Shown: piece by piece, positions 19,069 through 44,139 of the stretch | Position numbering within the stretch: the first letter of the stretch is position 1 | How the letters are laid out: each line of letters opens with the position of its first letter | DNA from: Tsukamurella tyrosinosolvens | Lineage (GTDB): Bacteria > Actinomycetota > Actinomycetes > Mycobacteriales > Mycobacteriaceae | DNA: 64,000 bases | NCBI RefSeq assembly: GCF_900104775.1 | Contig: NZ_FNSA01000001.1 | Span: forward strand, 1-64,000 | Direction of reading: 5' to 3' | Program-made: the position numbers and the translations under genes | Notes under the pieces: generated by a model | Databases searched by the model: none | What the model was told of the DNA's origin: nothing | What the model saw: the letters and a program-made list of their open reading frames with translations, nothing else

Positions 19069-19551
19069 TCAGGCTGCGTCGCGGGGACCGACAGTCGACT
19101 GGATTCCCGGCTTGGGCGGTGGCTGCTTCCGGCGCGTGAGGCCCGGTACGTGTACCTGCTGGTCGGCGCGCTTCGAGTGGGCGTACATGACCCGCCGCCG
19201 CTGGATCCCGGCAGCATCCCCGATGTCCCGCAAGGACCACCCGGCGGCCTGGCAGGCGGCGACCGCGGAGCCCAGCGCCTTGAGATCGTCGGTCTCGTTG
19301 AGGCTGGCCAGAGCCTCGACGGCCTCCTCGGACAGCACGTCGCGGCTGAGGCGAGCTGCCTCCGCGTCAGTGACGCCGAGCAGGGAGGCCACGGTGCTAG
19401 CTGGGAACACGGTGCGGATGCACCGGATGTTCCGTGCCAGCTCCCGACGGGCCTCGCGGACCTCGGGACGAGCGAGCGGACCTGCTGGTACTGCGTCGTA
19501 TGCGGCCTGGAGCTGGGCGACGGTCGGGCGTGTGAACTGGGGGTTTGTCAT
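19069..19551 (-). CDS. helix-turn-helix protein, possible element regulator
   Basis: 160 residues with two HTH-like segments: ASTVASLLGVTDAEAARLSR (about residues 51-70) and AGWSLRDIGDAAGIQRRRVM (about 102-121). The C-terminus is basic and ends STVGPRDAA, where a GGGGACCGACA motif lies antisense. A 27-bp operator-like site at 19629-19655 is 78 bp upstream of its start. It is the best candidate in the element for a repressor acting at one of the dispersed motifs, which is inference from domain content only. Confidence 0.65.
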   Translation of the reverse strand: MTNPQFTRPTVAQLQAAYDAVPAGPLARPEVREARRELARNIRCIRTVFPASTVASLLGVTDAEAARLSRDVLSEEAVEALASLNETDDLKALGSAVAACQAAGWSLRDIGDAAGIQRRRVMYAHSKRADQQVHVPGLTRRKQPPPKPGIQSTVGPRDAA

Positions 19552-19628
19552 GGTTCACGACGCTATGGGCGCGGCGAGCCCCGTGGGGCGACACGCCGAA
19601 GAACTGAGGGGACCGACATTCGCCGGCA

Positions 19629-19655
19629 CTACACCACCACTCGGAAACGAGAAAC
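19629..19655 (+). promoter_or_regulatory. 27-bp operator-like site, copy 1
   Basis: CTACACCA at 19629-19636, an 8-base spacer, then AAACGAGAAAC to 19655. It is upstream of the HTH gene at 19551 and sits 10 bases from the GGGGACCGACA at 19608-19618, with CGCCGGC between them, the same heptamer seen beside copies at 38930 and 41219. Confidence 0.6.
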
Positions 19656-19673
19656 GTTCCGGCATTCCGGCGC

Positions 19674-19961
19674 TCAGGACCAGAGGTACCGCATGACCCC
19701 GACGAAGTCCCGGCGCGCCTCGTCGATCCGCGCCTCCCACGCCGCCTCCCTTTCTCGCCAAACCGCGTGCGCCGCCTGCTCAGCGGGCGTGAACTGGCGC
19801 ATCGTGACCTTCTCTCCCACCTCAGCCTCCGGGAACCGTGGGCCAGCAGCGTCGAACACGGCCTGCTCGTCGGTGTACTCCGGCATCGGCTCAGACAGAC
19901 GCTCAATGAGCTGCTGGAACTCGGCGCGACGTTGGCCCTCGATGTCGCTCTCAGTGGACAT
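19674..19961 (-). CDS. hypothetical charged protein
   Basis: 95 residues from the ATG at 19961, MSTESDIEGQRRAEFQQLIE. Strongly helical and charged, with FTPAEQAAHAVWREREAAWEA near the C-terminus; probably a coiled-coil-forming cytoplasmic protein. No family recognised. It is transcribed toward the HTH gene but the operator-like site and a GGGGACCGACA copy separate them. Confidence 0.55.
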   Translation of the reverse strand: MSTESDIEGQRRAEFQQLIERLSEPMPEYTDEQAVFDAAGPRFPEAEVGEKVTMRQFTPAEQAAHAVWREREAAWEARIDEARRDFVGVMRYLWS

Positions 19962-20042
19962 GGGGGCGTGGTATCTGTGGGCACCGCTGACGTACCGATC
20001 CACCGTCGATGTGGGCTAACCCAACCCCTGTAGATTTGCGTC

Positions 20043-21953: not shown

Positions 21954-22559
21954 TCACTTGCCGTCCATCTTGCACTGGTCCACTACTGCCGCAGCCAGAT
22001 CCCGTAGGTGCGGTTTGAGCGCGTTGGTCCTGGTGAAGCCCTCACTATTTCGCGCCGCAAGGTCGCTCCGGATCGACGTCGCCCAGTCCCCCAGCCCATC
22101 GGCGTAATCCCGAGCCACGCTAGTGATGACGCTCGGTGCATTGCTGCGCCGGACGGTGTCGAGCAGTGCGGACGACTCCGAATCGAGCGCCGTAGCCGCA
22201 GCGGAGGCGTGCGGCTTCACCGAAGTCCATGTCCACCCGTCAGTGCCGTGCAGATGGTCGTAGAGCTGGTCGGTTACCGGGATCCGACGGTCGTCCGCGG
22301 TACCGATCTCGTTGCAGAGTTCCTTGGTCTCGGCCTTGCCCTCGGCTGCGGTGCTCGATGCCGCTGAGCTGGTCGACGTGGGCGTGATGGTGCTGGTCGT
22401 GGTCGTGGTCGTCGGCATGGCGCTCGTGGTCCAGGCCGGCGTCGTCGTGGGGACCGACACTGCCGCCCGGGGTGCGGGCTCGGAATCGTCTCTGAACAGC
22501 GCGATTCCGCCGACCAGGAGGACCACGACGACCGCGCCGATGAGAACGTTCTTGTTCAA
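21954..22559 (-). CDS. secreted or membrane-anchored hypothetical protein
   Basis: 201 residues from a TTG at 22559 that overlaps the upstream stop (TTGA) and lies one base after a GGGGACCGACA motif. An N-terminal hydrophobic helix (VLIGAVVVVLLVGGIALF) is followed by a Thr/Ser-rich linker (about residues 40-70) and an extracellular helical domain ending AAAVVDQCKMDGK. Last gene of a six-gene overlapping operon starting with the resolvase. Confidence 0.6.
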   Translation of the reverse strand: MNKNVLIGAVVVVLLVGGIALFRDDSEPAPRAAVSVPTTTPAWTTSAMPTTTTTTSTITPTSTSSAASSTAAEGKAETKELCNEIGTADDRRIPVTDQLYDHLHGTDGWTWTSVKPHASAAATALDSESSALLDTVRRSNAPSVITSVARDYADGLGDWATSIRSDLAARNSEGFTRTNALKPHLRDLAAAVVDQCKMDGK

Positions 22560-23230
22560 TGTCGGTCCCCACTCTCGAGCTTCTTGACGTACCTGGCCGC
22601 GCCGAACACCGAGCTGTGGGCGTCGGCCAGCCCCTGCGCCACGCGCTCCACGTTGCGACGTGCCTCCGTCAGCAGCTCGGGGACCGACATCGACGAAGCG
22701 GTGGTGAGCGTGCCCCCGTCGCCGCCGAGGTGATGGAGGACGATCCGGGCCTTGCGGTGAGCCTCCTCGACTGCCGCACCGAGGACCGCCACCGCGGCAT
22801 CCAGCTCCAACGGATCGATCACCGCCGCCGGAACCTCCGCGACCCTGGTGCGCACGATAGGTTCAGCTGGCCCGGCATGGTCAGACATGTACTCCACCGC
22901 CGCGGCCACAGCTGCCTCAGGGCCACCGGGCACTCCGATGTGTCGCGGCGGTTCCGGCGGCGGTGATCCAGCGGGACGCAGGTGGACCACCGCCGCGCCC
23001 ATGCGCGCGATCTTGTGAGCCTGATCGATGCCGGAGATTCCGGTGTCATCTCCGAGGATGATGATTTCCTGGCCGAGACGCACGCAGAGCCTGATCTCCT
23101 GCACGAGGGCCTCCTCTGCCGCTGCCGCAGCCTCGTCGGGGTTGGTGAAGTATCCAGCGCCACGTGCGATTTCCCACTCCCCGCGTGAGTCGATGGCGAG
23201 TCCTTCGATGATCCAGATGTCCTGGTTCAC
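22556..23230 (-). CDS. hypothetical protein, operon member
   Basis: 224 residues from a GTG at 23230, which overlaps the upstream stop (GTGA) and directly follows GGGGACCGACA. The N-terminal half (QDIWIIEGLAIDSRGEWEIA; LVQEIRLCVRLGQEIIILGD) has a strand-helix pattern resembling the first part of the gene upstream; the C-terminal half is a helical bundle (AVAVLGAAVEEAHRKARIVL; MSVPELLTEARRNVERVAQG). Possibly a DprA-like or nucleotide-binding fold, but no motif proves it. Confidence 0.6.
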   Translation of the reverse strand: MNQDIWIIEGLAIDSRGEWEIARGAGYFTNPDEAAAAAEEALVQEIRLCVRLGQEIIILGDDTGISGIDQAHKIARMGAAVVHLRPAGSPPPEPPRHIGVPGGPEAAVAAAVEYMSDHAGPAEPIVRTRVAEVPAAVIDPLELDAAVAVLGAAVEEAHRKARIVLHHLGGDGGTLTTASSMSVPELLTEARRNVERVAQGLADAHSSVFGAARYVKKLESGDRH

Positions 23231-24006
23231 TGTCGGTCCCCCTTCCGAGCCAGCCTGACCGACCATGGCTTCGACGGAAGCCCCGGCTCGTACCCGTTGG
23301 GACTCACCGGGATCACCGCCGCGCCCGACACCGCGAAGTTGTGTTGGTGCTCGACGGGCGCGTGCTCCACCTGGAACTGGAGGCGCTTTCGGGCCTCGGT
23401 TGCCGCTTCGTGCGGGTCGAGAAAGTAGCCGATCTCCCGCTCGATCCGCACGTCGTAGTCGGGGTTCAGGTGGACCGGGAGAGCCACGAGGTACACGGTC
23501 GAGGTGCCAACGTAGAAGTTGTCGGAGCGCTCGAAGTCGACCGCCGCGTCCGTGGGCACCGTCCGATGGATGTCAGTGTCGGTCCCCGTCTGGTCCCGGT
23601 ACGGCTCTCGATCCGGACGCACGTACAGCCTGGGATCCTGACGCGGAATCGCGTCCCGAGCCAACCGCTCTGGCGCAATGTCACGCAACCACTTCACGAG
23701 GACATCCGGATTCGCGCGCAGGTAGGCGACGCTGATCATCGCGCTGCCCGGCACTACCTCGAAGTCACCGTCCTCGAATCGCGTCGCCAGATCCTCGGCG
23801 TTTTCCAAGATCTCGTTGCGGGTCGGCAATTGTTGCCGCCGTGAGTTGGCCCGCGCTCGCCAACGCTCGATGAGCACGTAGACGCCTTCGTGGTTCCCGC
23901 GCTCCACCTCTGCGCGTAGCCCGGCCAGGAACCTCGGCACCAGGTCCGCTCGAAGAAACAGCCAGGGGGCCCCTTCGTCCAGCTGTTCCAGGTCGTCGTC
24001 GCTCAT
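23227..24006 (-). CDS. hypothetical protein, operon member
   Basis: 259 residues, ATG at 24006 overlapping the upstream stop by 4 bases. N-terminal helical region (APWLFLRADLVPRFLAGLRA) and a C-terminal part with IEREIGYFLDPHEAATEARK, which parallels REWEIARGAGYFTNPDEAAA in the next protein, so these two share a domain. A GGGGACCGACA copy lies inside its coding region as codons for G-T-D-T. Unknown function. Confidence 0.6.
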   Translation of the reverse strand: MSDDDLEQLDEGAPWLFLRADLVPRFLAGLRAEVERGNHEGVYVLIERWRARANSRRQQLPTRNEILENAEDLATRFEDGDFEVVPGSAMISVAYLRANPDVLVKWLRDIAPERLARDAIPRQDPRLYVRPDREPYRDQTGTDTDIHRTVPTDAAVDFERSDNFYVGTSTVYLVALPVHLNPDYDVRIEREIGYFLDPHEAATEARKRLQFQVEHAPVEHQHNFAVSGAAVIPVSPNGYEPGLPSKPWSVRLARKGDRQ

Positions 24007-24236
24007 CGGTGGCTCTTCTCGCCGCGGGGACCGACGGTCCGCCAGCAGAAGACGGCGAGCTGCTGCTCCCACTGGTCCACGATGTCGTCCAGCCCGACGG
24101 CGCGAGCCTCCTCGGGCGCGACGGCGGCAAGGTGGTGCGCCGCGTTCACTGCCTCCCCGAGCTTCATCATCAGCGTGTGCTCGGCTTCGTACGCGTCTCC
24201 GGTCGGGTAGGGAGTTCGCGGTCCCAGCTCGCTCAC
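24003..24236 (-). CDS. hypothetical small protein, operon member
   Basis: 77 residues from a GTG at 24236 that overlaps the upstream stop; its own stop overlaps the next start. Helical, with HTLMMKLGEAVNAAHHLAAV and VGLDDIVDQWEQQLAVFCW. The end TVGPRGEKSHR is encoded across an antisense GGGGACCGACG copy, like the C-terminus of the HTH protein at 19069. Confidence 0.55.
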   Translation of the reverse strand: MSELGPRTPYPTGDAYEAEHTLMMKLGEAVNAAHHLAAVAPEEARAVGLDDIVDQWEQQLAVFCWRTVGPRGEKSHR

Positions 24237-25057
24237 GCCGCCACCTCCGTCGCCAGGTCCTCGATCTTCTTCGCGGTCCCCTGAGATACCCCGGCGGCGA
24301 CCCCCGCGGCCTTCTGGCCCTTCCCCGCCGCGCGCGCAGCGAGCACCGCGGTGATCACGTTGATCGGCTGGATGGTGCGCCCGGTCGCTGCGATCAGCTC
24401 AGCCAGCTCCCGGTGATCATCGAGGGGATCAGCGTGATCATCCGGCTGATCACCGGCGGGCTCGACGAGGTGCATCGGCACCTCCGCCGAAGTCTCACTG
24501 ATCACCGGGTGCAGTTCGCCGGCCGACTGCTGATCACCCACCTGACCTGCACCGATCAGCGGCAGATCGATGGTCTGATCAAGGGTGATCGGCTCGATGA
24601 TCGGGTGATCAGGCGCGGTGATCACCTGTTGATCGGTGGGGATCACCGGCCGATCAACAGAGTGATCAGCGACCCCAGTCCCGCGGTCCTCCCGGACCAG
24701 CTCCCAGCCCGCGCCAGCGATGGTCACGTCAACCACGAGCGGCAAGATCACCGCGATAGCGGGAGCGAACCCGAAGGTGATCAGCAACTCGCGCAGCCCC
24801 ATGAACGAGACCGCGAACGCGCCGAGCGCGATCATCGAGATCACCGCCGCACCCACCCAATCACCACGGCGCGAGCCCACCGGCGCAGTGATCAGGTTGT
24901 GCGTGTGCCAGAACAGGAACACCGGCGCGATGCTCGCCGCGACCGCCGCGCCCCACCCGTACACCGTCGGCGCGACGAGCACCGCGTGCATCACGTTGCC
25001 GGTGATTGAGGTGAGCACCGCGAGGGCCAGCAGGCCCTTCCAACGAGTCCAGCTCAT
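24233..25057 (-). CDS. DUF2637/Spd-like membrane protein
   Basis: 274 residues from the ATG at 25057 (4-base overlap with the resolvase stop). Four transmembrane helices in the first 130 residues (LLALAVLTSITGNVMHAVLV; AAVAASIAPVFLFWHTHNLI; AVISMIALGAFAVSFMGL; FGFAPAIAVILPLVVDVTIA) match DUF2637, the spread-protein-like membrane family found with TraB in actinomycete plasmids and AICEs. A long hydrophilic region follows, then a C-terminal HTH-like segment (GKGQKAAGVAAGVSQGTAKK). The hydrophilic region is coded by DNA packed with TGATCA palindromes (24352-24668). It probably helps intramycelial or intercellular spread of the element. Confidence 0.75.
   Translation of the reverse strand: MSWTRWKGLLALAVLTSITGNVMHAVLVAPTVYGWGAAVAASIAPVFLFWHTHNLITAPVGSRRGDWVGAAVISMIALGAFAVSFMGLRELLITFGFAPAIAVILPLVVDVTIAGAGWELVREDRGTGVADHSVDRPVIPTDQQVITAPDHPIIEPITLDQTIDLPLIGAGQVGDQQSAGELHPVISETSAEVPMHLVEPAGDQPDDHADPLDDHRELAELIAATGRTIQPINVITAVLAARAAGKGQKAAGVAAGVSQGTAKKIEDLATEVAA
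24352..24668. repeat. cluster of TGATCA palindromes
   Basis: TGATCA occurs at 24352, 24414, 24435, 24447, 24499, 24531, 24576, 24606, 24619 and 24663, ten times in 317 bp, and GATC about twenty times. By composition well under one TGATCA would be expected. The sites lie in the linker-coding part of the Spd-like gene. Candidate roles: transfer locus (clt-like), origin, or methylation-sensitive site. Codon repetition (Asp-His, Asp-Gln, Val-Ile) is the trivial alternative. Confidence 0.7.
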
Positions 25058-25623
25058 GCTGCCGTCTCCTTCGCCGCCCGGTAGATCGTGTAGCGCGAGC
25101 ACCCGTACTCGCGTGCGAGATCCGAGGCAGACTCACCGTCCTCGTACCGTCGCTTCACCTCGGACTCCTGCTCTCGCGTGAGGCAGGGCTTGCGGCCCTT
25201 GTAGACGCCCTTCTTCTTGGCCAGCGCGATGCCCTCCCGCTGGCGCTCGCGGATCAGGGCACGCTCGAACTCCGCGACCGCGCCCAGCATCGACAGGAGC
25301 AGGTTGCTCATCGGGGAGTCGTCGCCGGTGAAGGTCTGCCCCTCCTTCCGGAACTCGACCCGGACGCCCTTGCCTGTGAGCTGCCGGACGATACGACGAA
25401 GGTCCTCGACGTTGCGGGCGAGCCGGTCCATGGAGTGGACGACGAGGGTGTCGCCGTCACGGACGTACTTGAGCGCCTCGGTGAGCTGCGGGCGCTCCAG
25501 GGTCGCGCCGCTCGCCTTGTCGATGAAGGTGCGGTCCAACTCGATGCCGTCGAGTTGCCGGTCGGTGTGCTGATCGACGGTCGAGACTCGGATGTAGCCA
25601 ACTCGTTGGCCCGGTCCGGCCAT
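25054..25623 (-). CDS. serine recombinase (resolvase/invertase)
   Basis: 189 residues; ATG at 25623 chosen because AAGGGGTGAG precedes it. The catalytic domain has RVGYIRVSTVDQHTDRQLDG with the nucleophilic serine in RVSTVDQ, the SMDRLARN block and EFERALIRERQREGIALAK. A C-terminal HTH (ESASDLAREYGCSRYTIYRA) completes a classic small resolvase. It could resolve multimers of the excised element or act on the palindrome at 25672-25703 upstream. First gene of the overlapping operon running to 21954. Confidence 0.92.
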   Translation of the reverse strand: MAGPGQRVGYIRVSTVDQHTDRQLDGIELDRTFIDKASGATLERPQLTEALKYVRDGDTLVVHSMDRLARNVEDLRRIVRQLTGKGVRVEFRKEGQTFTGDDSPMSNLLLSMLGAVAEFERALIRERQREGIALAKKKGVYKGRKPCLTREQESEVKRRYEDGESASDLAREYGCSRYTIYRAAKETAA

Positions 25624-26461: not shown

Positions 26462-28777
26462 ATGCGTCGCCTCAACGATCCTCAGCCTCAGCGGGACAAC
26501 CCGTTCATCACGCGCAAGACCACCGAGCCCACCCGAACCCCTGAACCGGACCTGCCAGAAGCCGATAGGGCCGGCGAGTCGGTCCCCGCGGAACCCGGGC
26601 AGCCCCAGAAGACGCCGACCTTCGACAAGGTCGCCTCTGAACAGGGCGAACAGGTCAGTGGCGGGCACGGCAAGGTGATCAAGCCGGACGGGTTCGACGC
26701 CGACGAAGCTCCGCCGAAGGCGAAGGGGCGCGGTAAGAGCAAGAAGGTCACCCCCGAACCCGACGCCGCGAGCGACGCCGAGCTGCTCAAGAAGATGCGC
26801 GCACGGTCTACTCAGATCCTCCGAGACCTGCCGAAGGCCAAGGTGCACAAGCGTGTCCGCGCGGGTGAGAGTCTCCGCCGCGACCTGCCGCCGGAGCAGA
26901 ACGCGCAGCTCACGCGGCAATTCCTGCGGCAGACCTACGTCGGCAACCCGGCGCTGTGGCGCGAACACACCGCCGCGCTGGGCTTGCATGCCCGAGTCGC
27001 GATGGGAGGCAAGTCGCGGACCATGCGCGATGCACTTCCGAACCTGGTCGACGTGCTGCTCGTCCCCACTTGGGACACGGTGATTCTCCGGTGCACCTTC
27101 CCCGGATCCGTTCAGTCCGTACAGAACCCCTGGGGGACCGACATGACGACAAGCCCGTCGACCGTCGAGACGCCCGATCCCCGCGACGGCGCAGGTGAGA
27201 CGTGGAACGTGAAGGTTCGCCTCGCTGCCGCGATGAAGTCGTGGAACCTCGACTTCCGCCCACCGCCTCCGGAGCCGCCGGATCCGTTGGACGTGATCGC
27301 AGCAGAGGTGCCGGTGCTCGCCGCGGCCATCGCGGACCGCGAGTCGCCGGGCCCCAACCGGTGGCGGCACACGGCATTGGTGGCAGGAATCAGCAGGACA
27401 GAGAGTCGCCAGAAGGTCATCGGCGGCAAGGCCGTGACCTACGACTCTCACGCGGCCCCGCGGTTCGTCGGAGCCGGTATCGGTCTGCGCGGACCGTGGA
27501 TCGACATCGAACCCATCCATCAGCGAGGACAGACAGTGGACGACATCAAGCGCCAGATCAAGCAGTTGGCTTCCGTTCTGCGAACACCCAACCTCAAGGT
27601 CGTGCCCTCGGGCGACGGTCTCTTCGCACGCCTCAACCTCAACACCAAGCCGCTCCAGTTCCCCTCGTTCGTGAGCATGGAACCGGAAGACTTCACCCGC
27701 CCCATCAGAGGAAACACCGAGGCGAGCGTGGTGAAGGCATACCGGGATCTCGCCTGGCCGCTGGGTGTGACCGCGGAAGGGCGTCGACTGGAGAACCACC
27801 TCGCGACGGTGCCTCACACGTTGGTCTGTGGCACCACCGGCTGCGGCAAGACGAGGACCATGATGAGCGGCGTCACCGCCCTGTGCGTCCAGGGGGCGCA
27901 GGTCGTCATCTGCGCGGCGAAGGCTGACACCTGGCTGGAGCTGATGAAGCCGGGGCGGTCGCCCGGCGTCCTGCATGTCGCCACCTCCCGCGGCGGCATG
28001 CTGCGCGCAGTTGCGTACGTGCTCCATGAGACTCAGCGCAGGAACAACCTGGTCGAACAGGGCGTGGATCCGAGCACGTTTCCGCCGCTCATTCTCCTGT
28101 TCGAGGAGCAGGCGTTCTTCACTAAGGCGATGGCCAACGACCCGGCGCTCAAGGACTACCTCCGCGCGCTGGAGAAGATCACGCTGGTCGGCCGATCACT
28201 CGGCGTCCATTTCATCGGCGCATCGCAGCGAGTCGAGGACAAGAGCTTCTCCAACGCCCTGTTGGCACAGGTCAGCAGCCGTATCGCGCTCGGCGAGAAG
28301 GAAGACATGGCGCTGTCGAAGCTGTTCGACGGATCCGAGGCCGCAGCCGAGGCGATGGCATCGATCACCAAGTCGATGAAGGGCCGCGGAGTCGTCCTCG
28401 ATACGGACACCGGCGAGGTCGAGCTGATCCAGATGCCCTACATCTACAGTCCCGGCGCGAAGCCGGTTGAGTACGACACGGCAACCCCCGAGATGCTCGC
28501 CAACTGGCAGCGATGGAAGACCGCGCTGGAGTCCACGCCCCGGACCCAGTCGCGGATCGGGTGGGCCTTCGAGACTGGTGTCGCCGGTGCAGAGAATCCC
28601 TGGCAGGAGATGGACTGGGGTGACCTCGAAATGATCCGCCCGATCAACCTGGACCGTCAGGACGAGAACGGAAATTGGGTTCCCATTCCGGAACGGGCAA
28701 TCTACGACCCCAGCGCTGGCGACGCCTACGCGGGCGGGATCAGCAAGGCCAGCGGCAACCACGCATCGATCGAGTAG
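26462..28777 (+). CDS. FtsK/SpoIIIE-type DNA translocase, TraB-like
   Basis: 771 residues. A charged, proline-rich N-terminus (about 110 residues) precedes a middle region and the motor domain: Walker A LVCGTTGCGKTRTMMSG (about residue 455), Walker B PLILLFEEQAFF (about 540) and the arginine-finger region VGRSLGVHFIGASQRVEDKS. This is the organisation of TraB translocases, which pump double-stranded DNA between actinomycete cells after binding clt repeats, and no relaxase is needed. The N-terminal extension lacks clear transmembrane helices, so a membrane partner (25843 product) may anchor it. Two dispersed GGGGACCGAC copies lie within it (26577, 27133); the second ends in an in-frame ATG. 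Confidence 0.85.
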   Translation: MRRLNDPQPQRDNPFITRKTTEPTRTPEPDLPEADRAGESVPAEPGQPQKTPTFDKVASEQGEQVSGGHGKVIKPDGFDADEAPPKAKGRGKSKKVTPEPDAASDAELLKKMRARSTQILRDLPKAKVHKRVRAGESLRRDLPPEQNAQLTRQFLRQTYVGNPALWREHTAALGLHARVAMGGKSRTMRDALPNLVDVLLVPTWDTVILRCTFPGSVQSVQNPWGTDMTTSPSTVETPDPRDGAGETWNVKVRLAAAMKSWNLDFRPPPPEPPDPLDVIAAEVPVLAAAIADRESPGPNRWRHTALVAGISRTESRQKVIGGKAVTYDSHAAPRFVGAGIGLRGPWIDIEPIHQRGQTVDDIKRQIKQLASVLRTPNLKVVPSGDGLFARLNLNTKPLQFPSFVSMEPEDFTRPIRGNTEASVVKAYRDLAWPLGVTAEGRRLENHLATVPHTLVCGTTGCGKTRTMMSGVTALCVQGAQVVICAAKADTWLELMKPGRSPGVLHVATSRGGMLRAVAYVLHETQRRNNLVEQGVDPSTFPPLILLFEEQAFFTKAMANDPALKDYLRALEKITLVGRSLGVHFIGASQRVEDKSFSNALLAQVSSRIALGEKEDMALSKLFDGSEAAAEAMASITKSMKGRGVVLDTDTGEVELIQMPYIYSPGAKPVEYDTATPEMLANWQRWKTALESTPRTQSRIGWAFETGVAGAENPWQEMDWGDLEMIRPINLDRQDENGNWVPIPERAIYDPSAGDAYAGGISKASGNHASIE

Positions 28778-28791: not shown

Positions 28792-29280
28792 TTGCCTCGT
28801 AAGGATCCGGTCGCGAATCGCGCCGCCCGCGATTTCATGACCCATTTGGTACCCGAGTTCGGCGAGACGGTTGATGCCGCAATCGGCCCCCTCTATGACC
28901 TCACGCAGAAGTGCCGTGAGGGGTATGCACCCACGATCAACGATGTTCTCGGTGTGATCGATAAGCTCCACCAGGGTCTGGTTGCCGCCGAGGACGCGAA
29001 GTGGGAACTCCTCGCCGCGACTCGCCCCGCAGGTGCCACGATTGATGCGATTGCGCGCGCCGCCCATTTGCATCACACGAATGTGAAGCCTCGCCTGGAT
29101 GCCTACCCGATCAGTCGGGCCAGGGGCGAGAACTTCGTCAGGGTGGACCCCCATAGGGCACATACGGGGGGTGGAGATTCTGAAAATTCAAATTTTGAAA
29201 ATTTCCAAAATTCAAATTTTTCAAATTCTGTTTCCTGGGAACTCTGGTTCCCGAACGATTCTGATATGGATACCGCCTGA
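28792..29280 (+). CDS. hypothetical DNA-binding-like protein with Asn/Phe-rich tail
   Basis: 162 residues from a TTG preceded by AAGGAACAG, 14 bp after the translocase stop. The central region is helical with an HTH-like segment (ATIDAIARAAHLHHTNVKPR). After residue 135 the tail reads SENSNFENFQNSNFSNSV, encoded by a remarkably AT-rich 55-bp stretch. The protein may bind near the AT-rich/GT-rich region at its own 3' end, as some replication and partition proteins do. Confidence 0.6.
   Translation: MPRKDPVANRAARDFMTHLVPEFGETVDAAIGPLYDLTQKCREGYAPTINDVLGVIDKLHQGLVAAEDAKWELLAATRPAGATIDAIARAAHLHHTNVKPRLDAYPISRARGENFVRVDPHRAHTGGGDSENSNFENFQNSNFSNSVSWELWFPNDSDMDTA
29178..29232. other. AT-rich segment, possible DNA unwinding element
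   Basis: About 55 bases of mostly A and T with repeated AAATTTT/AAAATTC units in a genome of very high GC. It is part of the 3' coding sequence of the gene ending at 29280 and is followed by alternating purine-pyrimidine DNA. Such a patch is the usual signature of an unwinding element at an origin. Confidence 0.5.
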
Positions 29281-29783: not shown

Positions 29784-30317
29784 GTGAACCAGAAGAAGGT
29801 CGCCTCAACCATTGCCACCGTTGGTGTACTCGTTTCATCGGTGGTCGGGTGCGGCGGGAATACCACACCACTCACCGAGCGCGTATTCACCGATGTCATC
29901 TGCATGAAGGTGTATACCTCGGGCGGCTCGGGAGCCAATTGCAGCGACGTGCTCAAATCCAGCACCAGCGAGCTGGAGTCGTGCGTCCCACAGAAGCCGT
30001 CGAGCCCGATCAGCAGCCTGTCGGAACTCGCGCGGTACTGCCCTTCGGTGGCAGTCCGGATCACCGCGAGCACCGCGTCCACGGCACCCAGTTCGACGCA
30101 GGGGACCGACACCGAGAACGGCGCAGGCAATGCCACCGAGGCGGCTCCTGCGACCGAAAACATGTCAGGGTTCGGCGATACCGTGAACGCGATGGTCTTC
30201 GGAATCCTCGGATTGCTCGCCGTCACTGCATTCGGATTCTGGTACCGCGCCCGGCGAGACCGACAGAACCGCACGGCCCAGAGGGCGCACGCCGCCGAAC
30301 ACGGCTGGCACAACTAA
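29784..30317 (+). CDS. lipoprotein with C-terminal transmembrane helix
   Basis: 177 residues from a GTG with AAGGAGA 6 bases upstream; earlier in-frame codons are repeat-derived and rejected. The signal ends VLVSSVVGCGG, a lipobox with cysteine at about residue 23. Four more cysteines follow in the outer domain, then a Thr/Ala-rich linker containing a GGGGACCGACA copy (codons G-T-D-T), then a helix VNAMVFGILGLLAVTAFGFW and a basic tail. Anchoring at both ends is unusual. Unknown function. Confidence 0.6.
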   Translation: MNQKKVASTIATVGVLVSSVVGCGGNTTPLTERVFTDVICMKVYTSGGSGANCSDVLKSSTSELESCVPQKPSSPISSLSELARYCPSVAVRITASTASTAPSSTQGTDTENGAGNATEAAPATENMSGFGDTVNAMVFGILGLLAVTAFGFWYRARRDRQNRTAQRAHAAEHGWHN

Positions 30318-32324: not shown

Positions 32325-32473
32325 CCATCGACTGGCCCTTCTTGGTCTGGAACAACTTCATGCTCCTACTGATCTGGCTCGCTCCCCGCTGGCCGCGGCT
32401 CCGCCTGGTCCTCGGCGGCACGCGAACCAGGCAGAGGCCGGCGAGTCGGTCCCCTATGGATCAGGGGCGCTGA
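32321..32473 (+). CDS. small membrane peptide
   Basis: 50 residues, start overlapping the upstream stop (ATGA). One hydrophobic helix (FLVWNNFMLLLIWLAPRWPR) and a basic tail. The antisense GGGGACCGACT copy near its 3' end shares 19 bases with the one at 26573-26587. Too short for family assignment. Confidence 0.5.
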   Translation: MTIDWPFLVWNNFMLLLIWLAPRWPRLRLVLGGTRTRQRPASRSPMDQGR

Positions 32474-32474: not shown

Positions 32475-32698
32475 GTGGACCGGGACAGGATGATCGCTGC
32501 TGCTGAGCGCGCCGGATGGACCCTGGTGAAGGGCCGCAAGCACTACAAGCTCATGTCGCCGCCAGGGACCGACGCCAGATGGATCAACCTGGCTGCGACG
32601 CCGCGCGTTCCATCGGCAACAACACCGGCCTGGTCATCATCGCGCCGAGCAGGCCGCGTTCGACTGCGGCACCCCGCCGCTCCCGGCAGGCGGCGTAG
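32475..32698 (+). pseudogene. HicA-like small protein, probably frameshifted
   Basis: GTG start 2 bases after the previous stop. MIAAAERAGWTLVKGRKHYK then LMSPPGTDARWINLAATP is HicA-like (GW, K-H-Y-K near the place of the catalytic histidine, P-P-G turn). In this frame there is no stop before the next gene: it runs on in frame. One base later the alternative frame reads RSIGNNTGLVIIAPSRP and stops at 32698, eleven bases before the next ATG, as a normal gene end would. I infer a shift around 32600. Read-through fusion to the next gene is the alternative. Confidence 0.5.
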
Positions 32699-33621: not shown

Positions 33622-33828
33622 TCACCGGTGACGGCGCGGTGGCCTCGGTTGCAGGCCCTCGCGGGGGACCGACAGGCCACGCTCGATGACCTCTTGAAGT
33701 TCCGGCGGCAGATCACTGTGCCGCAGGTACGTATGGCGAACCGTCGGGGATTCCGCGGCGCGGCGGAGGGTCTCGCGCAGCTCAGGGTTCTCGTCGTACT
33801 CACCTTGGGCGTCATGGTCGCTCATCAT
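33622..33828 (-). CDS. hypothetical small protein
   Basis: 68 residues (ATG at 33828 or 33825). Acidic N-terminus (SDHDAQGEYDENPELRETLR) and basic C-terminus; a GGGGACCGACA copy lies antisense in its 3' part. It is divergent from the lipoprotein at 33927 with a 27-bp operator-like site between, which supports it being expressed. Confidence 0.4.
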   Translation of the reverse strand: MMSDHDAQGEYDENPELRETLRRAAESPTVRHTYLRHSDLPPELQEVIERGLSVPREGLQPRPPRRHR

Positions 33829-33926: not shown

Positions 33927-34442
33927 ATGAAGCATCTCACCCGCCTGGCCTGCGGCGCGGCCCTGTTCAGCGTCGTCGCGGTCACCAGTTGCTCGCTGCC
34001 GCCCGAGCGCCCCGCCGCAGTAGGGGTACCGACCAGCAGCACAAGCACTCGAACGATCTACTGCCCCTCTCCCGGCGAGGGGAACCCGTCGGACCTGTGC
34101 CAGGCCCACGCTGCGGGCGTGGGCCTCGATACGCCCCACGAAACGATCCGCGTGGTCGTGTGCCCGCCTTCGGGTAGCCTCAGCGCACCCGCTGGATGCC
34201 TGGCTCACGAGTCCGGCGTGCCGGTCCCCGCCTCTGCAGGGACCGACCGGCTCAGCGAGCCCGCCGCCGACGGATGCAGGCATTCGATCCACGTCGAGCC
34301 CGACGGCACTGAGCTGCAACACCTGAATGCCATCTGCCCCGTCGTGCACCCGCTCGAAGGTGAGCGAGTGATCGAGGTCGGTCCCCCGGCGGAGCCCATC
34401 ACGCCCGCGGCCCTGGTGGAGCCCGGCGACATCCCGATCTAG
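33927..34442 (+). CDS. lipoprotein
   Basis: 171 residues, ATG preceded by GGAGGATCC. Signal peptide with lipobox VAVTSC (cysteine at about residue 23). Six further cysteines in the mature part and short repeats of a V-C-P motif (IYCPSPGEG; VVVCPPSGS; AICPVVHP) suggest a disulphide-bonded surface protein. Two motif copies (34238 and 34376) fall in it. Followed by a strong terminator. Unknown function. Confidence 0.6.
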   Translation: MKHLTRLACGAALFSVVAVTSCSLPPERPAAVGVPTSSTSTRTIYCPSPGEGNPSDLCQAHAAGVGLDTPHETIRVVVCPPSGSLSAPAGCLAHESGVPVPASAGTDRLSEPAADGCRHSIHVEPDGTELQHLNAICPVVHPLEGERVIEVGPPAEPITPAALVEPGDIPI

Positions 34443-34747: not shown

Positions 34748-36508
34748 ATGATGGGATCGAAGGTGGAGCTGTTCGCGCAGATCCGGCGGGACGCCCGGGT
34801 CGAGGGCATGAGTATCCGGGCGTTGGCTCGCAAGCATGGCGTGCACCGGAGGACGGTGCGGCAGGCGTTGTCATCGGCGGAGCCGCCGCCGCGGAAGACG
34901 CCGGAGCGGTCGTCGCCGCGGTTGGACCGGTTCAAGGCGGCGATTGATGAGATGTTGCGGTCGGATCTGGATGCTCCGCGTAAGCAGCGGCACACCGCGA
35001 CGCGGATCCGGGAACGCCTGGCGATCGAGCACGATGCGGTCGAGTTGTCGTATTCGACGGTGCGGGACTACGTGCGGGTCCGGCGGGCGCAGATCGAGGT
35101 GGAGGCCGGCCGCCGGACGGAGGTGTTCATCGCCCAGGACCACGCCCCGGGCGCGGAGGCGGAGGTCGACTTCGGCGAGGTCTGGGTGATCCTGGGCGGG
35201 GTGAAGACCAAGTGCCACATGTTCGTCTACCGGCTCTCGCACTCGGGCAAGGCCATTCACCGGGTCTATCCGACCGGCGGGCAGGAAGCGTTCCTCGAAG
35301 GGCACGTCGAGGCGTTCCGCGAGCTCGGCGGGGTCCCGACCCGGCATATCCGCTACGACAATCTCACCTCGGCGGTGGTCGCGGTCCTGCAGGGCGGAGA
35401 CCGGCGGCGACAGGAGAACCCGCGGTGGACGTTGTTTCACTCGCACTACGGATTCGATCCGTTCTACTGCCAGCCCGGCATCGCCGGGGCGCACGAGAAG
35501 GGCGGCGTTGAAGGCGAGGTCGGATGGTTCCGCCGCAACCGGCTGACCCCAATGCCGCAGGTCGAGTCCCTCGATGAGCTCAACGAGCAGATCAAAGCCT
35601 GGGAGGACCGCGACGAGGGCCGCCGGATCGACGGACGACTGCGCACCATCGGCCAGGACTACGAGCACGACCGAGCAGCGCTCGCGCCGCTGCCGGTGGA
35701 GGATTTCGACCCGGGCCTGATCCTCACACCACGGGTCGATCGGTCGGCGATGATCACCGTTCGGATGGTGAAGTATTCGGTGCCGGCGCACCTGATCGGC
35801 CGCCGAGTCCGCGTCTCACTACAAGCCTCCCAGCTGCTGGTCTACGACGGCCGGACCCTGGTCGCGCGGCATCCACGGGTCGCCGGCCGCGGCACCGCGA
35901 AGATCGACCTCGACCACTACCTCGAGGTGCTCAAGTTCAAACCCGGTGCCCTGCCGGGATCAACGGCGTTGGCGCAGGCCCGCGCTGCCGGGGTGTTCAC
36001 CGCCAGCCATGATGCGTTCTGGGCCGCCGCCCGACGAGTCAACGGCGACACCGACGGCACCAGCGAGCTGATCGACGTCCTGCTGCTGCACCGCAGCCTG
36101 CCCGCCGCGGCGGTGATCGCCGGCATCGATGCTGCATTGCGGGTCGGGGCGGTGAGCGCCGAGGTCGTCGCCGTTGAGGCTCGCCGCGCCGAAGCCCGCC
36201 TGCTCGCGCACGCCTCGGTCGCTGCCGACCAGACAGGTGGGGCCAACGCTGGCCGTCATCTCGATCGCCATGCCGAACGACGCGAGCAACGAGTTGTCAG
36301 CCTCACCCAACGACGGCTCGCAGACCCCGCGGCGGTGATCGCCGGCCTGCCACCCGACCGGCGACCGCTGCCCAGCGTTACGGCCTACGACCGCCTGCTC
36401 CCGCAGCACCGGCGACGCACTGCCTCCGACGCGCTACCTGCGTCGCTGGACCCACCACCGATTGAGTCGCTGGACCCACCACCGATTGAAAGGCCCACCC
36501 GGCTATGA
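34748..36508 (+). CDS. istA: IS21-family transposase IstA
   Basis: 586 residues. N-terminal HTH (MSIRALARKHGVHRRTVRQA), then the rve integrase core with the three acidic residues in EVDFGEVWV, RYDNLTSAVV and HEKGGVEGEVG, a spacing typical of IstA. Catalyses strand transfer with IstB. Length is slightly above the family's 500 or so. Its stop overlaps the istB start (ATGA). Confidence 0.95.
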   Translation: MMGSKVELFAQIRRDARVEGMSIRALARKHGVHRRTVRQALSSAEPPPRKTPERSSPRLDRFKAAIDEMLRSDLDAPRKQRHTATRIRERLAIEHDAVELSYSTVRDYVRVRRAQIEVEAGRRTEVFIAQDHAPGAEAEVDFGEVWVILGGVKTKCHMFVYRLSHSGKAIHRVYPTGGQEAFLEGHVEAFRELGGVPTRHIRYDNLTSAVVAVLQGGDRRRQENPRWTLFHSHYGFDPFYCQPGIAGAHEKGGVEGEVGWFRRNRLTPMPQVESLDELNEQIKAWEDRDEGRRIDGRLRTIGQDYEHDRAALAPLPVEDFDPGLILTPRVDRSAMITVRMVKYSVPAHLIGRRVRVSLQASQLLVYDGRTLVARHPRVAGRGTAKIDLDHYLEVLKFKPGALPGSTALAQARAAGVFTASHDAFWAAARRVNGDTDGTSELIDVLLLHRSLPAAAVIAGIDAALRVGAVSAEVVAVEARRAEARLLAHASVAADQTGGANAGRHLDRHAERREQRVVSLTQRRLADPAAVIAGLPPDRRPLPSVTAYDRLLPQHRRRTASDALPASLDPPPIESLDPPPIERPTRL

Positions 36509-37332
36509 CCGCAACCGCCAATAAGAACCAGACGAATGCGCTGGCCCCGTCGTTGCGCCGCCGGGGCGGCCTCACCGAAGAAGCCGCCCTCGCCGCCGTT
36601 GACCAGGCCTGCCGGCGCCTACGCCTGCCGACAGTGCGGTCGATGATCGACCAGCACCTCACCGCCGCCGCCAAGCAGCAATTGTCCTACCAGGGGTTCC
36701 TCGCCGAACTCCTGCTCGCCGAAGTCGACGACCGGGACCGCCGCTCCACTGTTCGCCGCGTCAAAGCCGCGGGGTTCCCGCGGGAGAAGTGGCTGGCGGA
36801 CTTCGACTTCGACGCCAACCCCGACATCGAACCCGCCACCATCCACCAGCTCGCCACCGGCGACTGGATCCGCCACGGACTGCCGCTCTGCCTCATCGGC
36901 GACTCCGGAACCGGCAAATCCCATCTGCTGATCGGATTGGGAACCGCTGCCGCCGAGCAAGGCTTTAGAGTCCGCTACACCCTCGCCACCAAACTAGTGA
37001 ACGAGCTGGTCGAGGCCGCTGACGAGAAGCAGCTCGCGAAGACCATCAACCGCTACGGCCGCGTTGACCTGCTCATCATCGACGAGCTCGGCTACATGGA
37101 ACTCGATCGCCGCGGCGCCGAACTGCTCTTCCAAGTCCTCACCGAACGCGAAGAGAAGAACAGCGTCGCGATCGCTTCCAACCAGTCCTTCTCCGGCTGG
37201 ACAGACACCTTCACCGACCCACGACTCTGCGCCGCGATCGTCGACCGGCTCACCTACCGCGGCACCATCATCGAAACCGGCACTCACAGCTACCGCCTGG
37301 CTCACACCGAAGCAGCAGCTACCGCGGGCTAA
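36505..37332 (+). CDS. istB: IS21-family helper ATPase IstB
   Basis: 275 residues, DnaC/IstB AAA+ type: Walker A LIGDSGTGKSHLLIGLG, Walker B VDLLIIDELGYMELD, sensor IASNQSFSGW. N-terminal helical domain RSMIDQHLTAAAKQQLSYQG. It assembles on target DNA and activates IstA. Coupled to istA by a 4-base overlap. Confidence 0.96.
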   Translation: MTATANKNQTNALAPSLRRRGGLTEEAALAAVDQACRRLRLPTVRSMIDQHLTAAAKQQLSYQGFLAELLLAEVDDRDRRSTVRRVKAAGFPREKWLADFDFDANPDIEPATIHQLATGDWIRHGLPLCLIGDSGTGKSHLLIGLGTAAAEQGFRVRYTLATKLVNELVEAADEKQLAKTINRYGRVDLLIIDELGYMELDRRGAELLFQVLTEREEKNSVAIASNQSFSGWTDTFTDPRLCAAIVDRLTYRGTIIETGTHSYRLAHTEAAATAG

Positions 37333-37673: not shown

Positions 37674-37791
37674 CTCGCTCGGGGCCCACAGTACCAGCCC
37701 GACCCAACCGCGACAAGCACATTACGTTGTTGCCCAATAACTTTGACTACCCCATGCGAATCAGAACAGGAACAGGTCGGTCCCCTCCTGG

Positions 37792-38956: not shown

Positions 38957-38989
38957 GCCGGCGGGGACCGACCAACCGATAGGAGAGCC

Positions 38990-40778: not shown

Positions 40779-40857
40779 GCTGCGACCTTATGGGGCGCTG
40801 TCCGATCTCGCACGGAATGCCCGCCTCCATGTCGGTCCCCCTCCGTACTGTCTGCCC

Positions 40858-41028: not shown

Positions 41029-41184
41029 TCACCGCGGCTCGTCGCGCACCTGGTTCGCGGTCGCACCCAGCTCCTCCAGCTGCCACGCCAGATACACCGC
41101 GGCCTGTCGGTCCCTCTCGGCGCTGACTTTGTCCAGCAGGTCACGGACGGGTGCGAGTACGGCGTCGATCTCGTCGTCGGTCAT
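41029..41184 (-). CDS. 51-residue helical protein
   Basis: ATG at 41184, stop at 41029 immediately next to the convergent stop. MTDDEIDAVLAPVRDLLDKV then AERDRQAAVYLAWQLEELGA: one long amphipathic helix pair, dimer-like. The AERDRQA codons contain the AGGGACCGACA motif variant. Unknown function. Confidence 0.5.
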   Translation of the reverse strand: MTDDEIDAVLAPVRDLLDKVSAERDRQAAVYLAWQLEELGATANQVRDEPR

Positions 41185-41245: not shown

Positions 41246-41276
41246 GCCGGCCGGGGGACCGACAGGAACAAGAGCA

Positions 41277-41300: not shown

Positions 41301-41347
41301 AGTTCTGGTAGACGGCCGTCACCGACCGGCGGCTTCCGATGGATGTG

Positions 41348-41644: not shown

Positions 41645-41671
41645 TTCCAACGCTCCTTAAGGCGATCCCGA

Positions 41672-41690
41672 CCTGAACTCAAGGTTCAGG
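41672..41690. promoter_or_regulatory. operator-like palindrome
   Basis: CCTGAAC, 5-base centre, GTTCAGG, 28 bases upstream of the start at 41644. The spacing differs by one from the mycobacterial SOS box. The remaining 250 bases up to 41945 show no gene. Confidence 0.45.
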
Positions 41691-41945
41691 ATAGCATCGA
41701 CGGGAAGTTTGTGCAACCGAAATCCGTTGTCGGTCAGCATTTTTCATTGTTTCTTGGCCTAGGCAACACGCGACGCCTCGCAAGTCGAGGTCAGGGGCTG
41801 TCTCAAGCTCCCCTGTCAGGCGGACTGAGCCTCAACAGGCTCGGCCACACCGTCTCCATGGACACCAGCCTGGTCTCGCAGGACCGATAGTGTCACCTCC
41901 CCAGGACTACCCGTCCTCGGCGCGGCGGACTAAGGGTGCCACCGG

Positions 41946-42128
41946 TCACGGGCAACGACCCCAGTCCGTCCAGGCGTGGCCGCATCGAGTGCATCGGTAG
42001 TCGAAAACCTCAGTGTTGTCGGCGAGCACCTCCGCTCGGACCGGTAGCTCCTTGCGTGCCCTCGCCCGCCTGCCCCGCGGCGAGCACTTCGGGCAGAACC
42101 TTCCGAGCGTCTGCCAATAGCTGGTCAT
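41946..42128 (-). CDS. zinc-ribbon protein
   Basis: 60 residues; ATG at 42128 with AGGAGG 8 bases upstream. CPKC near residue 14 (GRFCPKCSPRG) and CTRCGH near the end (DYRCTRCGHAW) form a zinc ribbon. It lies downstream of the right GGGACAGAAG array and the DUF3987 gene; perhaps a transcription or replication accessory. Confidence 0.65.
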   Translation of the reverse strand: MTSYWQTLGRFCPKCSPRGRRARARKELPVRAEVLADNTEVFDYRCTRCGHAWTDWGRCP

Positions 42129-42160
42129 CTGCAATACCTCCTTGGTTGGGCCGTCGGGAA

Positions 42161-42265
42161 CTTCTGTCCCACTTCTGTCCCGCTTGTGTCCCCGGGGTCG
42201 GCCAGCACATAAGTGCAGGTCAAGCGGCCACCTCGGACTTCTGTCCCTTCTGTCCCTTCTGTCCC
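42161..42265 (-). repeat. right bipartite GGGACAGAAG repeat array
   Basis: On the minus strand: units at 42265-42256, 42256-42247 and 42247-42238 (9-bp spacing), a 45-bp gap, then GGGACACAAG at 42192-42183 and GGGACAGAAG at 42181-42172 and 42170-42161 (11-bp spacing). The first block encodes the GQKGQKGQK tail of the DUF3987 protein. Same architecture as 17922-18027 in inverted orientation. Confidence 0.8.
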
Positions 42266-44049
42266 CGGGGACGGCGTGGGTTCAGCGCATACTCGGGGGA
42301 CGACGAGCGCCCCGCGGTCCGCTCACCACCACCGACCGCCGCAATGAACCCGTGATCCACGAGAAGCGTGATCGCGGCGTCGAGTTCCGCGGCGGTCTTC
42401 AACCGCGACTTCGCCCCTCGCTGGAGCTCCCGACGCTTGAAGGGGTGCGAGCCTTCGGAGTACAGCCGCTCAGCGACATCGAGCAAGTACTCCGCATCGG
42501 CGCGCGACGGATCCTGCCCCATACCCCCGAGGACCTCTCCCGCGCAGGCCCGGAAATACTCCCCGATCATGATCGCGCTGGTCATCGCCTCGACTCCGAC
42601 GGGCAGATGCTGACCAGCCGGGCCGTGTTCCACGAGGTGAAGGAGGCCAGCGATCCGCGCGACCGCACCCGGGTACTTGGAGCCCCAGTCCTGGATGGAA
42701 TCGAGATCCCCCTGCCCGAGAGAGGATTCAACCTCTACTCGCACCGCGCGGAACGCCGCCGCCGCGGCATCGTCGAGCGTGAGCACGAGCGGACCCGCGG
42801 ATCCATCGCGGGTTACAAAGGCGCACACGAGGTCCTTGATACGACGGACGTATCGAGCCTGCACAAACTCCGGAACAGGGGCGGAGTCGATGTCCCGCCG
42901 ACCGACCCGGGACACGGGAAGCGCGAACAGCATCCGCGCGATCAGCCCTCGCCCCCGGAAGGCGCGGTTCGCCGAGAGCGAGTCAATGACATCCGGCTGG
43001 ACCATGAGCAGCATCGAGAGGTAGGCGCGCTCGATGGACTCGGACCTTCCACGGCGGTCGACCCGAAGCGAGTCTCCGGCATGGCCTTTGAGGGCGAAGT
43101 CGATGTTCGGGACGCCTCGCGAGTAGCGACCGGAGAGGGTATCGAAGAACCCCCCTTCCGCGCTGAGGATCGCGAGGCGGCCTCCCTGCTCAACCATGAG
43201 CGACGCGGCCGCTTCCGGCGTCGTGTCATCCGCGACGAGCCGGAGAGCCGCGGGAACCTCGATAGCCGCTGCCGCCGTCGCCGCAGCCTCGGCCTCGGCC
43301 TCGGTCAGCGCGACTGTGTTCGTGCGGTCCTGGGCCGCGATGGTCGCGGCCTTCGATGCTGCCGCCTCCGCGATCCCCCTCTCCGTCTCGGCCCGCACGC
43401 GGTCACCGTCCCGAGCCTGGTTCAGGTCCCGCTCGGCCGCGCGCAGCGGCGAGCTGAATGCCGACAGCACCGCACTCTTCCGCTCGCCCGGACCGGCGAC
43501 GGGGATCGTGAAGAGCGTCATCGGCTCCCGCCAACCTCGGCGGATCTCGATGTCCGCGAACCCGGCGGCGACGGCAGCGAGCACACCGAGCGCGACCGAT
43601 CCGGCCATGGCCGGATCGGTCTGGGTATCTTCGGCGACCGCCGAGACCATCTCCGCCACCACCTGTGGCATCGCGTCCACCGGGAACTCGGGAATGGGGT
43701 TCGGGCGCCGGAAAGGCACGGGCGGTCCGTCGAAGACCTCACCGAACATGGCGACGTACCGAGCGGCCTCGGCTTCGGCGGCGTCATCCGCCCGAGCCTC
43801 GTCCATCTCTGCCGCCAGCTCGGTCCGGATCCGCGCGATCTCATTCGCCGTGATCACAGCTTCGACGGAGTGCCCGCGATCAAGCACGGCTCGCTTGCGG
43901 GCCTTCTCCACATCGTCGCGACGCCTCTTGACGTCCAACGCCTCGGATTCGGTCATCGTCCCCAAGGTTTCGGCGGCGTCACGCCGTCGGCGCTCCGCAA
44001 CCTCACGTCGACGCTGGTCAGCGTCCGGACGGTCGTTTACACTGGACAC
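42220..44049 (-). CDS. DUF3987 replication/primase-like protein
   Basis: 609 residues from a GTG at 44049, directly after a GGGGACCGACA motif. A charged helical N-terminus (about 120 residues) precedes the DUF3987 domain: DAMPQVVAEMVSAVAEDTQT, FTIPVAGPGERKSAVLSAFS (P-loop-like), ILSAEGGFFDTLSGRYSRGV and RRGRSESIERAYLSMLLMVQ. DUF3987 proteins accompany primase/helicase functions on plasmids, phages and AICEs and are taken as replication initiators. The gene's 3' end overlaps the right repeat array, which supports a Rep-iteron relation. Confidence 0.8.
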   Translation of the reverse strand: MSSVNDRPDADQRRREVAERRRRDAAETLGTMTESEALDVKRRRDDVEKARKRAVLDRGHSVEAVITANEIARIRTELAAEMDEARADDAAEAEAARYVAMFGEVFDGPPVPFRRPNPIPEFPVDAMPQVVAEMVSAVAEDTQTDPAMAGSVALGVLAAVAAGFADIEIRRGWREPMTLFTIPVAGPGERKSAVLSAFSSPLRAAERDLNQARDGDRVRAETERGIAEAAASKAATIAAQDRTNTVALTEAEAEAAATAAAAIEVPAALRLVADDTTPEAAASLMVEQGGRLAILSAEGGFFDTLSGRYSRGVPNIDFALKGHAGDSLRVDRRGRSESIERAYLSMLLMVQPDVIDSLSANRAFRGRGLIARMLFALPVSRVGRRDIDSAPVPEFVQARYVRRIKDLVCAFVTRDGSAGPLVLTLDDAAAAAFRAVRVEVESSLGQGDLDSIQDWGSKYPGAVARIAGLLHLVEHGPAGQHLPVGVEAMTSAIMIGEYFRACAGEVLGGMGQDPSRADAEYLLDVAERLYSEGSHPFKRRELQRGAKSRLKTAAELDAAITLLVDHGFIAAVGGGERTAGRSSSPEYALNPRRPRGQKGQKGQKSEVAA

Positions 44050-44139
44050 TGTCGGTCCCCTTCTTGACGGTAGGCAGATCGAGTTGCGTTCGACCGAAGG
44101 CTCCTGTTCCTAGGCAGGAGCCTTCGGTGTTTCCGGGGT

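Follow-up and report, generated by a model that had tools for sequence, protein, structure and literature searches.

A dispersed asymmetric word in a tRNA-integrated element of Tsukamurella tyrosinosolvens and its versions in other integrated elements

The closest described counterparts of the subject of this work, a short DNA word scattered through an integrated element (element W) in the first 64,000 nucleotides of contig NZ_FNSA01000001.1 of Tsukamurella tyrosinosolvens (the whole stretch analysed, hereafter the window), are the stoperators of the cluster A phages. In the available excerpts of PMC9283540 and PMC6550527, phages such as L5, Bxb1 and TipsytheTRex are described as carrying more than 20 and up to about 30 of these asymmetric 13-bp sites, with motifs that are similar overall and vary at several positions between immunity groups, each repressor favouring its own. 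Stoperators follow the direction of transcription, lose their function if reversed, and are located in promoters and short gaps (PMC9283540, in part). The start-associated sequences (SAS) of cluster K phages are repeated, non-palindromic 13-bp sites that typically lie 3-7 bp ahead of start codons and share a single orientation; they are absent or rare in the host, and their function is given as unknown in the excerpt of PMC3203893. Two plasmid-type systems are also of relevance. The TraB protein of Streptomyces recognises 8-bp TraB recognition sequence (TRS) repeats at the clt locus (PMC4170104, in part), and the plasmid-encoded KorB of RK2 has 16-bp OB sites and acts far from them (PMC11790492, in part).

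The word in element W shares with the cluster A stoperators the presence of many scattered asymmetric copies in one mobile genome, which is true of W and of two relatives, A and B, as well as the drift of the motif between related genomes; three versions were found in the six elements compared here (W, A, B, E, X and F), which come from five genomes and of which three share ancestry. The main difference is the free orientation. Relative to the gene strand, 9 of the W sites lie on the same strand, 7 on the opposite one and 9 are not wholly inside a gene (orientation was tested in W only), and 16 of the 25 copies are wholly within genes. The carriers also differ, since they are tRNA-integrated elements; among their proteins a repressor was not identified, no search aimed at the stoperator domain having been made. 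The analogy to stoperators drawn in the original prediction, which was made from the letters of the window, is thus sound as regards copy number, spread and the drift from group to group, but does not extend to the orientation lock. Like the SAS, the word is a repeated asymmetric site particular to a single group of mobile genomes; unlike them, few of its copies sit just before start codons and their orientation is mixed. It resembles the TRS in being a short word in a TraB-type element, but the 10- to 11-mers seen here are scattered, at least 105 bp apart, and occur also in elements without a detected TraB. Unlike KorB or ParB sites, it is not palindromic, and unlike Chi or the FtsK-orienting polar sequences (KOPS), it has no clear enrichment on the host chromosome. 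No report of such a dispersed word was found in the open-access PubMed Central literature among the matches listed.

Abundance and shape of the word in element W

Element W is 28.3 kb long and is inserted at a tRNA-Ser gene of a 5.28 Mb genome (G000), where it is flanked by attachment (att) direct repeats. The left one, attL (17701..17774, no strand), is a direct repeat of the 3' part of tRNA-Ser with 91% identity over 76 bp to attR (45956..46031, no strand), which lies inside tRNA-Ser(TGA) (45975-46060, minus strand); the exact core of attL spans 35 bp (17717-17751). A count on both strands confirmed that the window has 22 exact copies of GGGGACCGAC, and 25 with the AGGG variant, all of them between 19083 and 44060 and within W, with 15 copies on the plus and 10 on the minus strand as had been claimed. 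Expressed as the 9-mer GGGACCGAC, the 25 copies comprise 22 GGGG and three AGGG forms (32564, 34238 and 41106). The original prediction had described an 11-base motif present 25 times; the full GGGGACCGACA, however, was counted only 15 times. The 9-mer is absent from 1-17700, from 46040-64000 and from the IS21 insertion sequence (IS) at 34748-37332, in agreement with the earlier claim.

In 100 dinucleotide shuffles of the window, GGGGACCGAC appeared 0.76 times on average and four times at most, and a second-order Markov model of W gives 0.19 expected copies, which bears out the hand estimate of about 0.2. The genome as a whole has 46 copies, 22 in W and 24 elsewhere, including four in element X, so that the claimed absence outside the element is true of the window and not of the genome. 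The reversed pattern, used as a control, occurs 14 times in the same genome, compared to the 24 copies of GGGGACCGAC outside W; there is no clear excess of the word on the host chromosome, and because the chromosomal copies are near this control a host protein with a chromosomal role is argued against. The excess in W over the rest of the genome has a Poisson probability of 5e-43, and 400 rounds of synonymous shuffling left a mean of 1.8 copies against the 16 real copies wholly in genes. The enrichment therefore passed both checks proposed for it, the genome-wide count and the codon-preserving shuffle. Over 401 genomes of the family, the 11-mer was counted 19 times in the own genome, 22 in G148, 14 each in G113 and G286, and 13 in G028; with G286 and G028 also high, these counts are not proof of uniqueness. 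A clustering may also be present in G188, with 21 places, the placement being known for 2 among the matches listed.

The word is sharply defined. Over the 80 sites of the 9-mer in W, A and B, the best-supported form is RGGGACCGACA: GGGACCGAC is preceded by G at 72 sites, by A at 7 and by C at 1, it is followed by A at 48, and the flanks have almost no common letters outside the word. Among the one-mismatch words in these elements, 7 have A at position 1 and 23 are distributed over the other 29 words, against 72 exact copies. GGGGACCGAC is asymmetric and not a palindrome. The copies had been said to lie in every reading frame, but only 4 of the 6 frames are used in annotated genes. Sites not wholly in genes (9 of 25) seem to be in modest excess over the 17% of non-coding sequence, and the preference for gene boundaries is weak (median 102 vs 152 bp, p 0.09). 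A polar, KOPS-like arrangement along the element was not seen in W, A or B (Mann-Whitney p 0.28, 0.08 and 0.44, respectively). The mixed orientation rules out an RNA-level or start-codon role as a general explanation. Selection at the DNA or RNA level, as originally proposed, thus stands at the level of nucleic acid, with DNA favoured over RNA.

The same places in A and B, and changed versions in E, X and F

Near relatives of the TraB-like protein of W were found in two genomes (G148 and G113) among 201 of the family, the own genome being one of the 201. They point to element A (G148:C2:3813001-3893000) and element B (G113:C1:2145001-2220000, Tsukamurella sp. TY48), which are bounded by att repeats at tRNA-Ala and tRNA-Pro, respectively. 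There are 29 copies of GGGGACCGAC and 32 of the 9-mer in A, and 21 and 23 in B; the excess over the own genome has a Poisson probability of 2e-48 in A and 2e-36 in B. The places of the word are conserved too. In a comparison made without the IS regions and alignments of more than 95% identity, 16 of 20 aligned sites were kept between W and A, 9 of 15 between W and B, and 14 of 21 between A and B, where matched 9-mers predict 4.2, 1.8 and 3.0 kept sites; the counts for W against A and W against B were not attained in any of 20,000 simulations. The elements are about 76% identical around the compared sites, and the lost sites are often one base off. Because the positions are conserved between elements, selection at the level of nucleic acid is further supported. 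The 13.6 kb of W with an alignment to A or B contain 23 of its 25 sites, and the 11.7 kb without one (IS excluded) contain 2; the word thus belongs to the shared backbone, with the cargo lacking it or being slow to gain it.

Two changed versions of the word were found in addition to the one in W, A and B (GGGGACCGAC, the GAC version). The GTC version, GGGGACCGTC, is present in element E (G086:C1:3493001-3553000) and in element X (G000:C3:3105001-3175000), the latter in the same genome as W, and GGGGACGTGAC is present in element F (G008:C1:21001-81000) from another genus of the same family. For the five elements other than W, gene calling was done with a simple script. Between its att repeats, E has 7 GTC and no GAC copies, with 0.25 GTC expected (Poisson 9e-9), out of 44 GTC copies in the whole of G086. 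X has 11 GTC copies (Poisson 5e-14) and 4 GAC copies; because two of the four GAC copies sit in a gene that has a homologue in A and B, an imported piece is suggested. In F, 8 copies of GGGGACGTGAC are found in 18.4 kb between 75-bp exact repeats at tRNA-Leu, compared to one in about 100 kb taken from elsewhere in its genome. The separation of the GAC and GTC versions inside the elements is complete in W (22:0), A (29:0), B (21:0) and E (0:7). All three versions, in two genera, have the prefix GGGGAC in common, while the suffix varies by element. At the position of E that corresponds to one of the GAC sites shared by W, A and B, the sequence is GGGTACCGAC, and two GTC sites are at matching places in E and X. 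The integrases of E and X are 87% identical; between E and W, the identity is 86% for the DUF2637 protein, 94% for the recombinase, about 31-34% for TraB and 32% for the protein at 28792. The search for a co-varying motif in related elements, which had been recommended, thus succeeded with GTC in E and X and GGGGACGTGAC in F.

Readings of the word and its candidate readers

With a probability of roughly one half, we take the word to be a putative binding site for a sequence-specific protein, encoded by the element, that would silence or anchor the element DNA until excision, with one version per class. Results in its favour are the enrichment over the own genome in five elements and the similar contrast in F, the location of the sites between att repeats, the kept positions, the scarcity of one-mismatch words, the largely exclusive versions, the GGGTACCGAC found in E at a GAC place, the low chromosomal count and the minimum spacing. 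Such a protein would recognise the word and occupy W at the density that is found, about one site per kilobase, and little else in the cell; this occupancy would keep the element silent or fixed until it is excised. The suffix would set the class. W and X do reside in the same cell, and with one half of the word shared and the other variable, co-resident elements would not need to answer each other's protein. Among the uses, we think silencing or coating the most likely, and membrane anchoring via DUF2637 the next. A more tentative proposal, possible but less probable than the binding site as such, is that the words are private identity tags, each combining the GGGGAC half with a class half, that would be read in either orientation by an element-encoded protein, giving a form of heteroimmunity or incompatibility outside phages. 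If true, non-phage integrative elements would own address sites that are dispersed and specific to the class, and sequence alone would be enough to tell the class; it would also allow a test of whether given elements are able to reside together, and could lead to a new kind of reader of asymmetric sites. With two versions in one strain, the question of specificity is directly testable.

Candidate readers were sought by a phmmer comparison of open frames of at least 50 amino acids within the six att-bounded elements. The small serine recombinase (25054..25623, minus strand, by Pfam; broken in F) is the only family found by phmmer in all six; the DUF2637 protein (24233..25102, minus strand, by Pfam) was found in five of them by phmmer and in F by tblastn and an alignment search. 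The latter, on our reading, carries putative membrane segments and a putative C-terminal helix-turn-helix (HTH). Homologues of the FtsK/TraB-like translocase (26462..28777, plus strand; 80% identity in A and 86% in B) and of the putative HTH-like protein 28792, encoded 3' of it (28792..29280, plus strand), were found in W, A, B and E only, and none was found in X or F. DUF2637 and TraB each fit partly as the reader. Others were rejected: the recombinase as specificity reader, since its recognition helix is identical in W and E while the words differ; the integrase, since the five from the other elements form a cluster to which the W protein does not belong; and the replication proteins, since W has a DUF3987 helicase where A and B have Toprim/DUF5906 (D5_N also in B) with an identical word. 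The HTH protein encoded at 19069-19551 (minus strand), which the original prediction had put forward as a candidate binder, does not fit either, as it was found in only two of the six elements and not in B, E, X or F; it has weak Pfam and PHROG hits, and its HTH-like parts were assigned by reading only. A Pfam scan that covered 24 of the window proteins gave no ParB- or KorB-like hit.

Several results weigh against the binding-site reading. No reader was found, and no protein found in the six elements tracks the word versions fully. The DUF2637 protein of W (GAC) is closer to that of E (GTC, 86%) than to those of A and B (GAC, 30-31%), and the differences between W and E are not concentrated in the putative HTH (p 0.15). 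The DUF2637 cassette of W may have come from an E-like element and shifted in specificity afterwards; alternatively, each element may have a different reader, perhaps without homology to the others. The versions are also mixed to some extent: besides the four GAC copies of X, there is one GAC in F and one GGGGACGTGA in each of E and X. One GTC copy lies outside the att repeats of E within the stretch analysed. The minimum spacing of 105 bp, where 7.1 spacings below 100 bp are expected over the six elements (p 6e-4), is weaker evidence than this value implies because W, A and B are not independent. In a blind word screen, E, with a score of 20.4, ranked below 3 of 41 control stretches, some of which were flanks from the same genomes or came from further elements with DUF2637 or TraB; by itself E would thus not stand out. 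The best control score was 22.9; those above E were TTTGCCGACG at locus L028 (partly clustered), a chromosomal word in the right flank of the window (21.7) and a tRNA word (20.9).

One rival is a stoperator-like role, in which a repressor bound inside transcribed units would stop RNA polymerase, keep the element quiet and give immunity by class. The roughly 25 asymmetric, element-wide copies and the group-specific motifs match what the excerpts of PMC9283540 and PMC6550527 describe, and some sites are just 5' of annotated start codons (22561 and 23232), but stoperators are orientation-bound and the W sites are divided 9, 7 and 9 as given above, which makes this role doubtful. Equally doubtful in our view is a membrane anchor, in which DUF2637 would tie the element DNA to the membrane at numerous points for retention or spread. 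Together with the recombinase, DUF2637 is the only protein found in all six elements. Its C-terminal tails, GVSQGTAKKIEDL in W, GVAQGTVRTIEKL in E and X, IAARGTVTKIRDAL in A and VAARGTVTKIRDAL in B, agree with the word for the pairs E/X and A/B, but W does not go with A and B; E and X share the word and a near-identical putative HTH tail in proteins that otherwise differ, whereas W and A/B share the word and not the tail. DUF2637 was found at 29 places, five of them in known elements, and among 16 of the other 24 that were examined, in stretches mostly of 13-20 kb each, only F has a dispersed word.

Somewhat less likely again are transfer tags, at which the TraB-like translocase and 28792 would load, with X and F riding on the TraB of a helper. 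Both proteins are alike in W, A and B, which share the word, and diverged in E, where it is changed, and a precedent is provided by the 8-bp TRS repeats read by TraB of Streptomyces (PMC4170104, in part). The known TRS, however, are at one clt locus instead of being scattered at least 105 bp apart, and another TraB-type locus in the genome of F has a single F word in the 60 kb examined. No homologue of either protein was found in X or F; in the case of TraB, this weakens the analogy to TraB or FtsK recognition sequences in the original prediction. A signal read by the host (Chi-, KOPS- or restriction-like) and accumulated by the elements is improbable: the GGGGAC prefix in three versions across two genera would suit it, but there is no clear chromosomal excess, and two versions predominate in two elements of one cell, which is unexpected under one host reader. 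An origin by chance, through codon usage or as the remnant of an inserted repeat can be set aside, as nothing was found in its favour, the shuffles, the synonymous shuffles, the genome background and the conservation of positions are all against it, and the flanks of the 80 W, A and B copies share almost nothing beyond the word.

Individual sites, genes of W and other loci

The 25 sites of W are given here with their fate at the aligned places in A and B. Kept in both are 19608..19617 (+, intergenic), 23232..23241 (-, at a gene junction), 23578..23587 (-, the site that reads GGGTACCGAC in E), 30101..30110 (+), 32445..32454 (-, intergenic), 33664..33673 (+, intergenic) and, as the 9-mer, the AGGGACCGAC form at 32564..32573 (+). 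The sites at 22449..22458 (+), 24026..24035 (+), 27133..27142 (+, within the FtsK/TraB-like gene) and 40831..40840 (-, intergenic) are kept in A and differ by one base in B. Also kept in A are 22561..22570 (-, at a gene junction), 22679..22688 (+), 32189..32198 (+), 37776..37785 (-, intergenic) and 41254..41263 (+, intergenic), and in B 26578..26587 (-, within the FtsK/TraB-like gene) and 34377..34386 (-). The site at 31473..31482 (+) and the AGGGACCGAC form at 34238..34247 (+) are kept in neither; 38963..38972 (+, upstream of the TIR gene) and the AGGGACCGAC form at 41106..41115 (-) are not kept in A. Two sites lie in regions without A/B alignment, 31752..31761 (+) and 44051..44060 (-, upstream of the DUF3987 helicase gene). 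The site at 19083..19092 (+), in the 3' end of the HTH gene, is also present in A and is not among the aligned sites.

Gene annotation was transferred from the NCBI record of Tsukamurella tyrosinosolvens NCTC13231, of which 42.3 kb match the window at 99.9% identity; the 32 genes brought over in this way are in frame, and the FtsK/TraB-like protein of W is identical to one in that strain. The tyrosine integrase of W is at 44557..45885 (plus strand), the NCBI-annotated copy beginning at 44629. The motif-free istA/istB pair of IS21 (34748..37332, plus strand) has near-identical copies in A, E and X; the copies span 34602-37669 in the window, 51482-54549 in A, 36423-39487 in X and 39589-42173 in E, with 99.97-100% DNA identity to the W copy in A and X and 99.7-100% protein identity in E. 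Their presence in elements of three genomes is a sign of recent movement. The TIR-domain gene (38990-39913) has about 82-89% identity across W, A and B despite much differing cargo. Two small GGGACAGAAG-like repeat arrays in opposite orientations, one near attL (17931-18027, plus) and the other at the 3' end of the DUF3987 gene (42161-42265, minus), look like iterons and have the letters GGGAC in common with the motif. GGTGATC(A) words are dense in the DUF2637 gene of W (24349-24839) and are also found in the E copy, but not in the A and B copies.

Beyond the six elements, GGGGACCGAC is absent from the distant TraB and DUF3987 loci L021-L028. L028 (G106:C1:634001-654000) has 7 copies of TTTGCCGACG, and four of these fall within 400 bp next to a DUF3987-like gene. 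Two of five Mycolicibacterium plasmids with DUF2637 were examined; in pJCM12603 of Mycolicibacterium poriferae (L107), which has ParA/ParB genes, TTAACCGCGG occurs 7 times over 4 kilobase bins as part of a palindrome-like site. The candidate word CGACGGTG of plasmid G053 was rejected since it is also common in the Tsukamurella chromosome. Viral contigs contained no TraB, two DUF2637 loci, two integrase loci and no new word. Adjoining X, an island (L106 1-9801, NZ_LR134447.1) carries integrase, HTH, terminase, portal, capsid and head-tail adaptor genes and no annotated tail genes within the stretch seen, and is like a capsid-encoding phage satellite. An array of 26 tRNA genes (L084 11869 to L085 1646; G000:C3, ~2701869-2711646) is located about 9 kb from a third DUF2637 locus, the NCTC13231 copy of which has an FtsK gene alongside.

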